Positions 17,082 through 59,848 of a DNA stretch of 64,000 bases are shown piece by piece; within the stretch, counting starts at the first letter, position 1, and each line of letters begins with the position of its first letter. This DNA comes from an uncultured Clostridia bacterium. GTDB lineage: Bacteria; Bacillota; Clostridia; Lachnospirales; Anaerotignaceae. The translations under genes and the position numbers were made by a program. The stretch lies in NCBI GenBank assembly GCA_944379995.1, contig CALWGF010000002.1, positions 62,001 through 126,000 on the forward strand. Reading direction: 5' to 3'. The notes under the pieces are model-generated. The model made no database searches, was not told the origin of the DNA, and was given only the letters and a program-made list of their open reading frames with translations.

Positions 17082-17130
17082 ACCTCCGTATTGGTATGAT
17101 TTTTTTATTTGAATATAGAAAATAGATAAA

Positions 17131-17371
17131 CACATTGATGGGGACAGTAGTCTTTTATTGAAAACTTCAGCGAGTTGGAGATGGTGAAAGTCCGACGTGA
17201 TTAGATTTTTGACGAACATCACCCCTTAGTGGCATAGTGAAAAGTTATTCTTAGTAGCTTATGACGTATATCCAACGTTAAAGGGAATTTTTGAGAGGCT
17301 ATTTTTTTATAGCAATTCAGGTGGTAACGCGGTAACCTTCGTCCTGTTATATTGGGAACGAAGGTTTTTTT
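17131..17371 (+). promoter_or_regulatory. T-box riboswitch (isoleucine) controlling ileS
   Basis: Stem I spans about 17131-17231: its base pairs CATTGA-GGGG with CCCC-TTAGTG, with an AGTA box (GACAGTAG) on the 5' side. The likely specifier ATC at 17218-17220 (context GAACATCA) matches isoleucine. The conserved T-box AGGTGGTAACGCGG is at 17319-17332. It overlaps the competing terminator AACCTTCGT / ACGAAGGTT with a T-run (17334-17371). Uncharged tRNA-Ile should stabilise the antiterminator and turn on ileS. T-box identity is certain; the specifier is assigned by eye. Confidence 0.93.
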
Positions 17372-44020: not shown

Positions 44021-44187
44021 GACATAAGAGCGAAGAAACAGAAGGTTGCTAAATTACATAGTAGTTTAGGTTTTTCTGCGGAGCGATGTCCAGTTCAAGA
44101 AACCGGGCGACAAGGTCACTGTACAGAATATAAGGGTAGAAAATCGTCATTAGGGCGATGAGTGTGTCTATAAGTGTGTAGATACAC
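44021..44187 (+). promoter_or_regulatory. structured S10-operon leader RNA
   Basis: Three helices are visible. The first is a long interrupted hairpin GACAT...CAGAA...CTAAA / TTTAG...TTCTG...ATGTC (44021-44090). The second is ATCGTC / GGCGAT (44143-44159), the third a 9-bp GTGTGTCTA / TAGATACAC hairpin (44162-44187). The leader is much less AT-rich than its surroundings. Autoregulation by a ribosomal protein (L4 in E. coli) is plausible, not shown. Confidence 0.6.
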
Positions 44188-56771: not shown

Positions 56772-56990
56772 TTGTCAAAAGACGATGTTATAGAAGTAGA
56801 AGGAACCGTATTAGAAAAATTACCTAATGCCATGTTTCAGGTTGAACTTGAAAACGGGCATCAGATATTAGCACATATCTCAGGAAAACTTCGTATGAAT
56901 TTCATAAGAATTCTTCCTGGTGATAAGGTACTCGTTGAAATGTCTCCATATGACCTTACAAAAGGAAGAATCATTTGGAGAGCTAAATAA
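56772..56990 (+). CDS. infA: translation initiation factor IF-1
   Basis: A 72-residue OB-fold factor that blocks the A site during initiation. [21 protein letters not shown] and [28 protein letters not shown] are standard. The start is TTG with an AAGGAGGTTC site; no ATG or GTG alternative would give a full-length protein. Confidence 0.96.
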
Positions 56991-57017
56991 GTAGGCATTA
57001 AGAAAGGAGCGATCACA

Positions 57018-57131
57018 ATGAAGGTTAGACCATCTGTAAAACCAATGTGTGAAAAATGCAGAATTATCAAAAGAAAAGGTCGTGTAATGGTCATTTGTGA
57101 AAATCCAAAACATAAACAGAAACAAGGCTGA
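57018..57131 (+). CDS. rpmJ: 50S ribosomal protein L36
   Basis: A 37-residue protein, [20 protein letters not shown] at the N-terminus, with the zinc ligands Cys11, Cys14, Cys27 and His32 of the zinc-binding form. Ribosome binding site AAAGGAGCG. It is followed by a structured spacer before rpsM. Confidence 0.97.
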
Positions 57132-57342
57132 TAAATCTGCGGTTTATTATATATGGTTATGAAGGAGGTCAGGTGCCTCCACAAATCATCGATAAATCCG
57201 TCAACCGCCGGGAGGAGTATATAGTTAAAAGCGGACTCCGCACACAGGCTGACGGTCTGTGCAGTCTGTTTGTATACCCAATGGGCAATGTTTTTTAGAT
57301 AGATAATATAAAGTTTGAATAATTCAGGAGGTGTAAATATAC
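57132..57342 (+). promoter_or_regulatory. structured leader between rpmJ and rpsM
   Basis: A 211-base spacer with unusually high GC for this genome. It has a GGAGG / CCTCC hairpin (57164-57180), a decoy GGGAGGAG, and a strong interrupted hairpin, CGGACT+GCAC+AG pairing with CTGTGC+AGTCTG (57232-57268). A small CCC/GGG stem before a T6 run precedes the real AGGAGGTG site. Position equals that of the S4-regulated alpha-operon leader of E. coli, but sequence homology is not evident. Confidence 0.55.
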
Positions 57343-57711
57343 ATGGCACGTATTGCTGGTGTAGACTTACCAAGAGAGAAACGTATAGAGATAGGTCTTA
57401 CTTATGTATATGGTATCGGTCATTCAAGCGCTGTTAGAATTCTTAAAGAAGCTGGCGTAAACCCTGATACTAGAGTAAGAGATTTAACAGATGATGAAGT
57501 TGCTAAAATTCGTGAAGTTATCGACCGTTCACAGACAGTTGAAGGTGATTTAAGAAGAGAAATAGCTCTTAATATCAAACGCCTTATGGAAATCGGTTGC
57601 TACCGTGGAATTCGTCATAGAAAAGGTCTTCCTGTAAGAGGACAGAAAACAAAGACAAACGCTAGAACAAGAAAAGGTCCTAGAAAAACAGTAGCTAACA
57701 AGAAGAAATAA
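57343..57711 (+). CDS. rpsM: 30S ribosomal protein S13
   Basis: A 122-residue 30S head protein contacting the 50S subunit and t[23 protein letters not shown], the helix-hairpin region and the basic C-terminus [20 protein letters not shown] ([18 protein letters not shown]) are typical. First gene of the alpha operon section. Confidence 0.98.
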
Positions 57712-57731: not shown

Positions 57732-58133
57732 ATGGCAAAGAAAGCTGTTAAAAAAGCGTCTAGCCGTAGACGCCGTGACAAAAGACGTGTAGAACGTGGT
57801 CAGGCTCATATCCAGTCCACATTTAACAATACAATAGTAACAATTACTGACGCAGCAGGAAACGCTCTTTCATGGGCAAGTGCCGGACAGTTAGGTTTTA
57901 GAGGCTCAAGAAAATCTACTCCATATGCAGCTCAGATGGCAGCTGATACAGCAGCTAAAGCAGCTTCAGATTATGGTTTAAAGACAGTTGAAGTTTTCGT
58001 TAAAGGTCCTGGTTCAGGACGTGAAGCAGCTATCCGTGCTTTACAGGCAGCTGGTCTTGAAGTAACACTTATCAAAGACGTAACACCTGTACCACACAAC
58101 GGCTGTAGACCACCAAAACGCAGAAGAGTCTAA
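57732..58133 (+). CDS. rpsK: 30S ribosomal protein S11
   Basis: A 133-residue platform protein near the mRNA exit with [40 protein letters not shown] and the C-terminal [18 protein letters not shown], all conserved. Ribosome binding site GGGAGG, 22 bp from rpsD. Confidence 0.98.
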
Positions 58134-58155: not shown

Positions 58156-58758
58156 ATGGCAAGAGATAGAGTTCCAGTTCTTAAGAGATGTAGATCACTT
58201 GACCTTGACCCAATCTACTTAGGAATTGACAAAAAATCAAAAAAACAGTCACTTAGAGCCGGAAAGAAAATGAGCGAGTACGGACTTCAGTTAAGAGAAA
58301 AACAGAAAGCAAAATTTATCTACGGTGTACTTGAAAAACAGTTCAGAGGATACTATGCTAAAGCTGAAAAAATAGCTAAAAAAGAAGGTATCCCTGGTGA
58401 AAACTTACTTATGTTATTAGAGATGCGTCTTGATAACGTAATGTTCAGACTTGGATATGGTAGAACAAGAAAAGAATCTAGACAGATTGTTCGCCACAAA
58501 CACGTATTAGTAAATGGTAAACCAGTTGACATTCCATCATATGCTGTAAAAGTTGGAGATGTTATCGAAGTTAAAGAAAAATATAAAGACATGCAGAGAT
58601 ACAAAGACATTCTTGAAGTAACAGATTCAAGAATAGTTCCAGAATGGTTACAGGCTGACCATGAAGGTTTAAAAGGAACTGTAATGTCAAAACCACAGAG
58701 AGAACAGATTGATGTTCCAGTGGAAGAAACACTCATAGTTGAGTTGTACTCAAAATAA
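58156..58758 (+). CDS. rpsD: 30S ribosomal protein S4
   Basis: A 200-residue 16S assembly initiator and mRNA helicase-site protein. The S4 domain [33 protein letters not shown] is intact. The N-terminus ([20 protein letters not shown]) lacks the zinc-type cysteines found in some species and matches the zinc-free clostridial form. A new promoter and hairpin follow before rpoA. Confidence 0.97.
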
Positions 58759-58894: not shown

Positions 58895-59848
58895 GTGATT
58901 GAGTTTGAGAAACCTCGTATTGAAATTGACGAGATAAACGGTTCTTATGGTCGTTTTATCGTGTCTCCTCTTGAAAGAGGATACGCAACTACACTTGGTA
59001 ATTCTTTAAGAAGAATTCTTCTTTCATCTTTACCGGGTGCAGCTGTAAGCAATGTTAAAATTGATGGTGTAGTTCATGAATTTTCAGTAATTCCAGGTGT
59101 TAAGGAAGATGTTACAGAAATCATTCTTAACCTTAAAGGACTTGCCATTAAGAACAATAGTGAAAGTAATGAGCCTAAAATCGTTTATATTGACATGGAA
59201 GGTGAAGGCGAAGTTAAAGGTTCTGATATTAAAGCAGATGGTGATATTGAGATTTTAAATCCAAACCACCATATCGCTACTTTAAGCGGTGGCCCTAACA
59301 GCAAACTTTATATGGAGATTACTGTTCAAAAAGGCAGAGGTTATATCGGTGCTGATAAGAACAAAAAAGATGACCAGCCAATAGGAATGCTTCCTGTTGA
59401 CTCTATATTCACTCCTATAACAAGAGTTAATTTCCTTGTTGAAAATACACGTGTAGGTCAAATTACTGACTACGACAAATTGACACTTGAAGTATGGACA
59501 AACGGAACTATTGCTCCTGATGATGCTGTAAGCCTTGGAGCAAGAATTCTTAACGAACACTTAAATCTTTTCGTCGATTTATCAGATACTGCAAAGAATA
59601 CTGAAATAATGGTCGAAAAAGAAGAAGGCAAGAAAGAAAAAGTACTTGAAATGAGTATTGAAGAACTTGACCTTTCTGTTCGTTCATATAACTGTTTAAA
59701 ACGTGCAGGTATCAACACTGTTGAAGACCTTGCAAATAAAACTGAAGAGGAAATGATGAAAGTTCGTAACCTTGGACGTAAATCCCTTGAAGAAGTTTTA
59801 AACAAAATGGCTGACCTTGGTCTTGCTTTAAGACCTGGTGATGAATAA
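58895..59848 (+). CDS. rpoA: RNA polymerase alpha subunit
   Basis: A 317-residue subunit. The N-terminal assembly domain ([24 protein letters not shown]) dimerises to nucleate polymerase assembly. The C-terminal domain ([20 protein letters not shown] and [12 protein letters not shown]) binds UP elements and activators. The start is GTG with an AAAGGGAGG site. Co-transcribed with rplQ. Confidence 0.98.

Follow-up and report, generated by a model that had tools for sequence, protein, structure and literature searches.

A conserved structured leader before rpsM in Anaerotignaceae, a probable S4-sensing RNA of the alpha operon

Why does a densely packed ribosomal protein cluster leave a long spacer between rpmJ and rpsM? 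In the stretch of DNA analyzed here (64,000 nt from an uncultured Clostridia bacterium, referred to as the window), the rpmJ stop codon ends at 57131 and the rpsM ATG lies at 57343, and the whole intergenic leader is exactly 211 nt (57132–57342; coordinates of the leader, its parts, and the operon genes are all on the plus strand). Eight of the eleven other gaps listed for the stretch measure −4 to 28 nt, and three measure 69, 107, and 136 nt. The spacer is followed by rpsM (S13; 57343–57711; NCBIfam TIGR03631), the first gene of the operon, rpsK (S11; 57732–58133), rpsD (S4; 58156–58758), which encodes the proposed ligand and sits two genes 3′ of rpsM, rpoA (58895–59848), and rplQ (L17; 59956–60498); the identities of these genes, and of infA and rpmJ upstream, were checked with NCBIfam. 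GC content is 0.40 over the spacer and 0.495 over its core versus 0.33 for the window, and there are two hairpin units, a variable one at 57153–57189 and the core at 57191–57293. The original prediction was thus right to describe a GC-rich spacer of 211 bases, with at least two hairpins, inside a dense cluster.

The answer that we favor, at a probability of roughly 0.6, is that the spacer holds a cis-acting r-leader of the rpsM–rpsK–rpsD–rpoA–rplQ operon in Anaerotignaceae that most likely senses S4, where we infer both the ligand and the mechanism. A repeat or mobile element was also considered and rejected: the leader occurs just once in its own genome, and the 30 other matches are short (best E 0.018). 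Elsewhere in the window, positions 17126–17349 and 44025–44113 match a T-box leader (RF00230) and an S10-Clostridia leader (RF03136), respectively, at curated Rfam cut-offs.

Taken singly, the window sequence says little about structure. Its folding energy (z = −1.12, with 24 of 200 shuffles folding equally well) is unremarkable and was set aside as evidence, and the case for structure therefore rests on comparison. At the DNA level, 24 of 98 genomes (the window's own counted) have a sequence similar to the leader, all of them in the same family, and the aligned leaders share the block AAAUCCGUCA ... AGGAGYAUACAGUUAA ... UGACGG ... GUAAUGCCC. We call leaders of this kind type A. Folding z scores of 24 distinct cores of this type average a modest −1.47, and 9 of the 24 are below −2.

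The core motif (57191–57293) matches our covariance model R1, built from 25 family sequences, over its full length at 98.2 bits. It is one stack of four helices with bulges and is a real conserved RNA. From the outside inward come P1, an internal loop, a GG/CC element with P2, a 6-nt bulge, P3, a short bulge containing GCRGC, and the hairpin P4. P1 pairs 57207–57209 with 57284–57286 (alignments A1 and A2), which makes 3 bp here versus 5 bp modeled in relatives. P2, mostly invariant in A1, pairs 57214–57224 (GGaGUAUAUAG, with a single bulged A on this 5′ side) with 57270–57279; most relatives have one bulged A on the 3′ side as well. The 6-nt bulge (57225–57230) is conserved, reading UUAAAA in the window and UUAAUA in most relatives, and is followed by P3, in which 57231–57237 pair with 57263–57269 (both from A1). 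P4 (57244–57260; A1 and A2) has the form ACAG–loop–CUGU, and its loop holds UGACGG. The window's own copy is weaker than the consensus, both in the three pairs of P1 and in the P3–P4 bulge, which reads CCGC here and GCRGC in most relatives.

Covariation, which the original prediction had named as a check, is strong. Alignment A1 is a plain MAFFT alignment of 25 family cores, 24 of them distinct, with the structure drawn on one of them (L013). Within it, 97.0% of 740 cells are paired, 12 of 31 pairs have changed on both sides, and there are 62 double-substitution cells; when the partners are slid by 1–3 columns, these values fall to 33–43%, 2–5 pairs, and 2–15 cells, and the covariation measure falls from 0.264 to 0.066–0.097. 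Controls in which the 3′ letters were shuffled give 90.8%, 7.6 pairs, and 15.4 cells, and none of 500 reached the real figures; for further pair types, one of five measures, the real alignment scores no higher than the shuffles (23 versus 24.8). The signal is carried by P1 (doubly substituted in four of five pairs in A1 and five of five in A2) and P3 (five of six modeled pairs in A1), with some contribution from P4 (two of four modeled pairs) and a largely invariant P2 (1 of 10 pairs). Alignment A2, which is fitted to the model and has 32 distinct rows, is similar (97.5% paired, 14 pairs), and RNAalifold given no structure recovered P1, most of P2, and P3, with P4 missing. Because the fold has been kept while the letters changed, we read it as very probably a switch through which a ribosomal protein lowers expression of its own genes, with an architecture unlike that of the catalogued ones.

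The apical loop of P4 likely reaches back to the upstream strand. Its UGACGG (57250–57255; A1 and A2) is complementary to a CCGUCA box (57198–57203) within the invariant AAAUCCGUCA, and we predict that the two form a pseudoknot. All six pairs can form in all 24 distinct rows of A1, and 3 of the 32 rows of A2 lack the outermost one. When a 13-nt box and a 9-nt loop of this composition are drawn at random, a 6-bp complement between them turns up in 0.7% of cases, for lengths that were chosen post hoc. In A1 the two strands show no covariation, being nearly invariant; since covariation cannot appear in strands that do not vary, the pseudoknot is likely but unproven.

How widely is this RNA distributed? 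Of the 58 family genomes, 33, representing 7 of 17 genera, have exactly one R1 match, and each match precedes rpsM on the strand of that gene, 49–115 nt from the ATG (median 67). The match is followed by rpsK in 33 of 33 cases and by rpsD in 32, the contig ending soon after rpsM in the other. A scan of 291 genomes of the class gave two matches, both in Anaerotignaceae, under strict filters that scored only 13 candidate places per listed genome, so that weak R1 matches may have been lost. A strict pattern scan of genome contigs returned 31 records, including Anaerotignum, Tyzzerella sp. An114, Chakrabartyella piscis, and Candidatus Coprocola; the leaders in 30 of these are identical to those of family genomes already in our sample, and rpsM is present in 30, the remaining record being cut at the motif. 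By its named members the family of the window is Anaerotignaceae, and NCBI places Anaerotignum in Anaerotignaceae, Lachnospirales. As far as sampled, then, the type A leader is specific to this family.

The sequence between rpmJ and the core contains a hairpin of its own. This imperfect hairpin, H0 (57153–57189), lies just after rpmJ, and the pattern UAUGGYU..AGGG..CCCU..RGCC recurs directly after rpmJ in the window's family (f1) and in families f12 and f17. In alignment A3, made from 46 hand-picked leader starts of these three families, the mean folding z score is −1.77, with 39 of 46 leaders below −1 and 18 below −2. In the spacers of some genomes (for example, L130, L150, and L233) H0 is the only structure seen.

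Two local features on which the original prediction had leaned do not survive comparison across 29 of the 33 type A leaders. The supposed decoy ribosome binding site, GAAGGAGGT (57161–57169), is the 5′ strand of H0, and only 3 of the 29 have AGGAGG or GGAGGT on the 5′ side of the core. The T6 run (57291–57296), which had been read together with a small stem, occurs at that place only in the two members of the window's genus, and a T5 run anywhere in the 30 nt examined per leader was found in 6 of 29. Neither an intrinsic terminator nor a decoy ribosome site is conserved among these leaders, and both were rejected as the mechanism. These counts also weigh against transcription attenuation or antitermination through the weak stem and T6, or an RNA-processing or stability element with no protein ligand, an alternative that we consider improbable. 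The T6 run does exist in the window, S4 has been reported as an antitermination factor in Escherichia coli (in the relevant passages of PMC10931766), and the leader contains three terminator-like sites versus 0.5 in shuffles. Two of these sites are on the other strand, however, and the third is the P4 hairpin itself, after which the U-rich stretch is the P3/P2 strand. Promoter matches within the leader are at the level of chance (4 versus 3.5) and so give no sign of a local transcription start.

For a protein-sensing leader, the simplest proposal is repression of rpsM translation with coupling to the genes downstream. When 16S rRNA is scarce, free S4 would bind the folded core and thereby reduce expression of rpsM and the genes after it, most likely at the level of translation; the distal alpha genes would follow by translational coupling, whereas infA and rpmJ, being upstream, would be untouched. 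The contact would most likely be the P3–P4 bulge (GCRGC in most relatives, CCGC here), a suggestion that stems from the rpsM leaders of sister groups, in which GCGGCUG recurs next to a hairpin. The rpsM Shine–Dalgarno sequence, AGGAGGUG (57326–57333), is invariant in 24 aligned leaders, and no conserved partner for it was found; in a folding model that takes no account of the pseudoknot, its pairing partners are mostly local, and its mean unpaired probability (0.38) is close to that of the leader (0.41). With no such partner, and with a distance from the core that varies, direct occlusion of the Shine–Dalgarno sequence is not obvious, and both points count in favor of the alternative of attenuation, antitermination, or RNA processing. 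Between the core and the Shine–Dalgarno sequence, just after P1, most of the type A leaders from genera g7, g10, and g17 have a conserved UUUAUGYGAA; by eye, GCAUA in P2 is a potential pairing partner for the UAUGC within it. Several genera have a conserved UUUAUGCGAA downstream of the core, and a mini-ORF there was considered and rejected, since by eye no Shine–Dalgarno sequence precedes it; in six leaders of one genus, UUUAUGCGAA becomes AUGUGA, a start codon followed directly by a stop.

Which protein would the leader sense? Several lines of evidence bear on this question, and they do not all point the same way. First, Eckert and Weinberg take the known leader ligand encoded in the operon as the likeliest one (as set out in the relevant part of PMC7247131), and in E. 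coli, S4 controls the alpha operon through the rpsM start region (as described in PMC10931766). Rule and analogy together make S4 the default. We favor S4 as the candidate over another operon product by about three to one. Autoregulation through S13, S11, or L17 instead is unlikely in our view, though not negligibly so. That rpsM is the first gene speaks for it, whereas the closest published leader here has been assigned to S4, by argument rather than by experiment (in the portion of PMC7247131 that treats it).

Second, gene order offers a natural comparison, with mixed results. In a sister family (f2), all three checked alpha operons without rpsD have only 22–26 nt before rpsM, and all four checked genomes with rpsD in the operon have a leader with GCGGCUG; two further f2 genomes lie outside this check. 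That the leader is missing where rpsD is missing tells against a ligand other than S4. In family f22 the picture is less regular. The rpsM leader of one genome with rpsD outside the operon (G078) has no GCGGCUG, nor do those of two in which the sole rpsD match is on a different contig from rpsM (G112 and G191), and these three argue in the same direction as f2. In G139, rpsD is also outside the operon, yet the rpsM leader keeps GCGGCUG, a counter-example that would be expected if another product were sensed. Several further f22 leaders are without GCGGCUG with rpsD in the operon. In addition, 17 genomes of f5, f9, f10, f18, and f19 were picked because their spacers are short; every one has rpsD in the operon and just 13–39 nt before rpsM, and a leader is thus not obligatory. 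Where rpsD has been relocated in f22 (L314, L315, L316, and L318), the leaders share AAAUUAUCGCGGCA, which contains the GCGGC of rpsM leaders; the three f2 loci (L312, L313, and L317) are without AAAUUAUCGCGGCA, and no Rfam match at these rpsD leaders reaches its cut-off.

Third, we asked whether the core resembles rRNA. By eye, the conserved AGGAGCAUACAGUUAAU looked like a stretch of E. coli 16S rRNA. Mimicry at the sequence level was nevertheless rejected: in local alignments to the 16S rRNA of a family member (G049; none was found in the window's own genome), all scores were within the random range, with 678 of 1000 random sequences scoring at least as high as the conserved 20-mer and 48–300 of 300 at least as high as five cores. 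A core without similarity to 16S rRNA is a point in favor of another operon product. According to the corresponding sections of PMC7247131, 16S mimicry is seen in some S4 leaders but is no requirement, since the gammaproteobacterial one lacks it. On balance, S4 remains the ligand that we consider most likely.

What precedes rpsM in the relatives without a type A core? Family genomes without an R1 match commonly have a second leader, type B, in which CCGUCA(UU), present in most, is followed by a stem strand, GCGGCU(G), a hairpin that often starts with ACAG, and then the strand that closes the stem. Among 18 non-A family loci, seven leaders, two of them nearly identical, give weak full-length matches to R1 (E 0.06–0.38), and none of 25 loci from other families does. 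The type B fold is drawn from single-sequence folds and from a scan for stem–GCGGCU(G)–hairpin–stem, which found the arrangement in 9 of 15 leaders; with shuffled flanks the mean was 4.3 of 15, and 9 was reached in 2 of 200 shuffles, so that support for the fold is moderate. A third group, in several other families (L086, L068, L077, L118, L071, L056, L065, and L075), starts behind a TATAAT that resembles a promoter and contains AGCGGCUG or a close variant, then, in most, UUGCUGAUAGAAG or something similar. By eye, we take this type C to be a separate conserved leader.

The element common to many of these leaders is a heptamer. GCGGCTG occurs in 51 of 115 rpsM leaders of at least 100 nt across the order, in 11 families, whereas its reverse complement occurs in none of the 115; only AT-only 7-mers are common to more families. 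Leaders shorter than 100 nt do not contain it (0 of 41). These counts leave out ten loci at which rpmJ was not found upstream, of which five contain GCGGCTG. In those rpsM leaders that were folded or read, GCGGCUG adjoins a hairpin, and type A leaders of the window's kind have GCRGC at the matching place, the exact heptamer being absent. This correspondence hints that GCGGCUG and GCRGC may be a shared recognition site, with no implication that the scaffolds are homologous. A broader reading, which we offer tentatively and think somewhat unlikely to hold, is that one site, GCRGC or GCGGCUG with its hairpin, has been kept before rpsM in at least 11 Lachnospirales families as a shared S4 contact, while the scaffolds were rebuilt as type A, with the pseudoknot from loop to upstream strand; type B, which lacks this pseudoknot and is found in sister genera; and type C, which immediately follows a promoter in other families. 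If so, the alpha operon would provide a natural series in which one ribosomal protein's mRNA site is being rehoused, and the contact would differ from both the E. coli and the Bacillus solutions.

Is the type A leader, then, a new RNA? The original prediction, which proposed a new leader, also suggested scans with the Alpha_RBS and S4-leader models. Rfam 15 at curated cut-offs gives nothing at the leader. Up to E 10, Alpha_RBS comes closest, with 20.3 bits (E 0.02; the cut-off is 38) and a match that runs from the last part of the leader into the beginning of rpsM, and RF03140 (S4-Clostridia; cut-off 37.5 bits) has no match up to E 10 in the 601 nt of 56900–57500. Among leaders of the related types, 20 loci gave no Rfam match at cut-off, and another 20 gave one at the f6 locus L153 only (RF03140). 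A full-text literature search that took in PMC8040213 and PMC11109978 found this RNA undescribed in the texts so far as they were covered; supplements, including that of PMC7247131, lay outside it, and an unnamed entry there is possible. Leaders at the alpha operon are already known, and this structure is one not found in Rfam 15 or the literature search. The claim of novelty therefore stands for a conserved, structured alpha-operon leader without an Rfam 15 match and falls in so far as a Clostridia S4 r-leader at the same operon had already been listed by Eckert and Weinberg in 2020 (in the pertinent part of PMC7247131). Descriptions of how Clostridia control the alpha operon are sparse, and the sole S4 leader for the class that we found in print passes its cut-off, among the genomes sampled, in a single family of this order. 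The type A leader, with its clear and different fold, its core of about 100 nt, and the cultured hosts Anaerotignum lactatifermentans and A. neopropionicum, would be a direct candidate for S4 binding tests and, if S4 is the ligand, a comparative case of different RNAs serving the same ribosomal protein.

The published Clostridia leader, RF03140, is the nearest of the known systems. Like the type A leader, it lies upstream of rpsM–rpsK–rpsD–rpoA–rplQ in Clostridia, S4 is its proposed ligand, and it has matches in the same order. Its 55-nt motif, however, consists of two side-by-side hairpins with a 5′ GAAAGG, whereas the window core is one stack of P1 through P4 with no GAAA at its 5′ end. That the window leader is an RF03140 member diverged beyond recognition is very doubtful: besides the different topology and the lack of any match at the leader, all 12 over-cut-off matches in 295 genomes of the order, obtained with strict filters, are in family f6 and none is in the window's family, and of three sub-threshold matches in that family none is at an rpsM leader (two, in G042 and G039, are away from R1, and that in G017 is off the rpsM contig). 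Shared operon and position speak for such a kinship, as does a loose resemblance, by eye only, between GAAAGG...CCCCAAU of RF03140 and GAAGGAG...CCCAAC of type A. In f6 itself (L163–L179), RF03140 seems by eye to cover part of a larger element, in which complementary strands such as AUAUUG/CAAUAU and UUACUU/AAGUAA flank it outside the model.

The other known systems are more distant. The S4-Fusobacteriales leader, compared here by description, has the same gene order and likely senses S4 (according to its entry in PMC7247131), and no Rfam match of any kind passes its cut-off at the window leader. The Bacillus rpsD leader, also compared by description alone, is likewise S4-responsive and in Bacillota; it belongs to an rpsD gene that stands apart, and it is described as forming no pseudoknot (in the relevant passage of PMC10931766). 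Eckert and Weinberg call GUAA conserved in that leader (in their treatment of it in PMC7247131); among 31 complete, distinct type A cores, 25 have GUAA in P2, and the window's copy does not. Finally, Alpha_RBS (RF00140) of E. coli shares with the type A leader the same operon, with rpsM first, and a leader pseudoknot, known there and only proposed here. In E. coli, the pseudoknot includes the ribosome binding site (as described in PMC10931766), whereas the window core ends 49 nt before the ATG.
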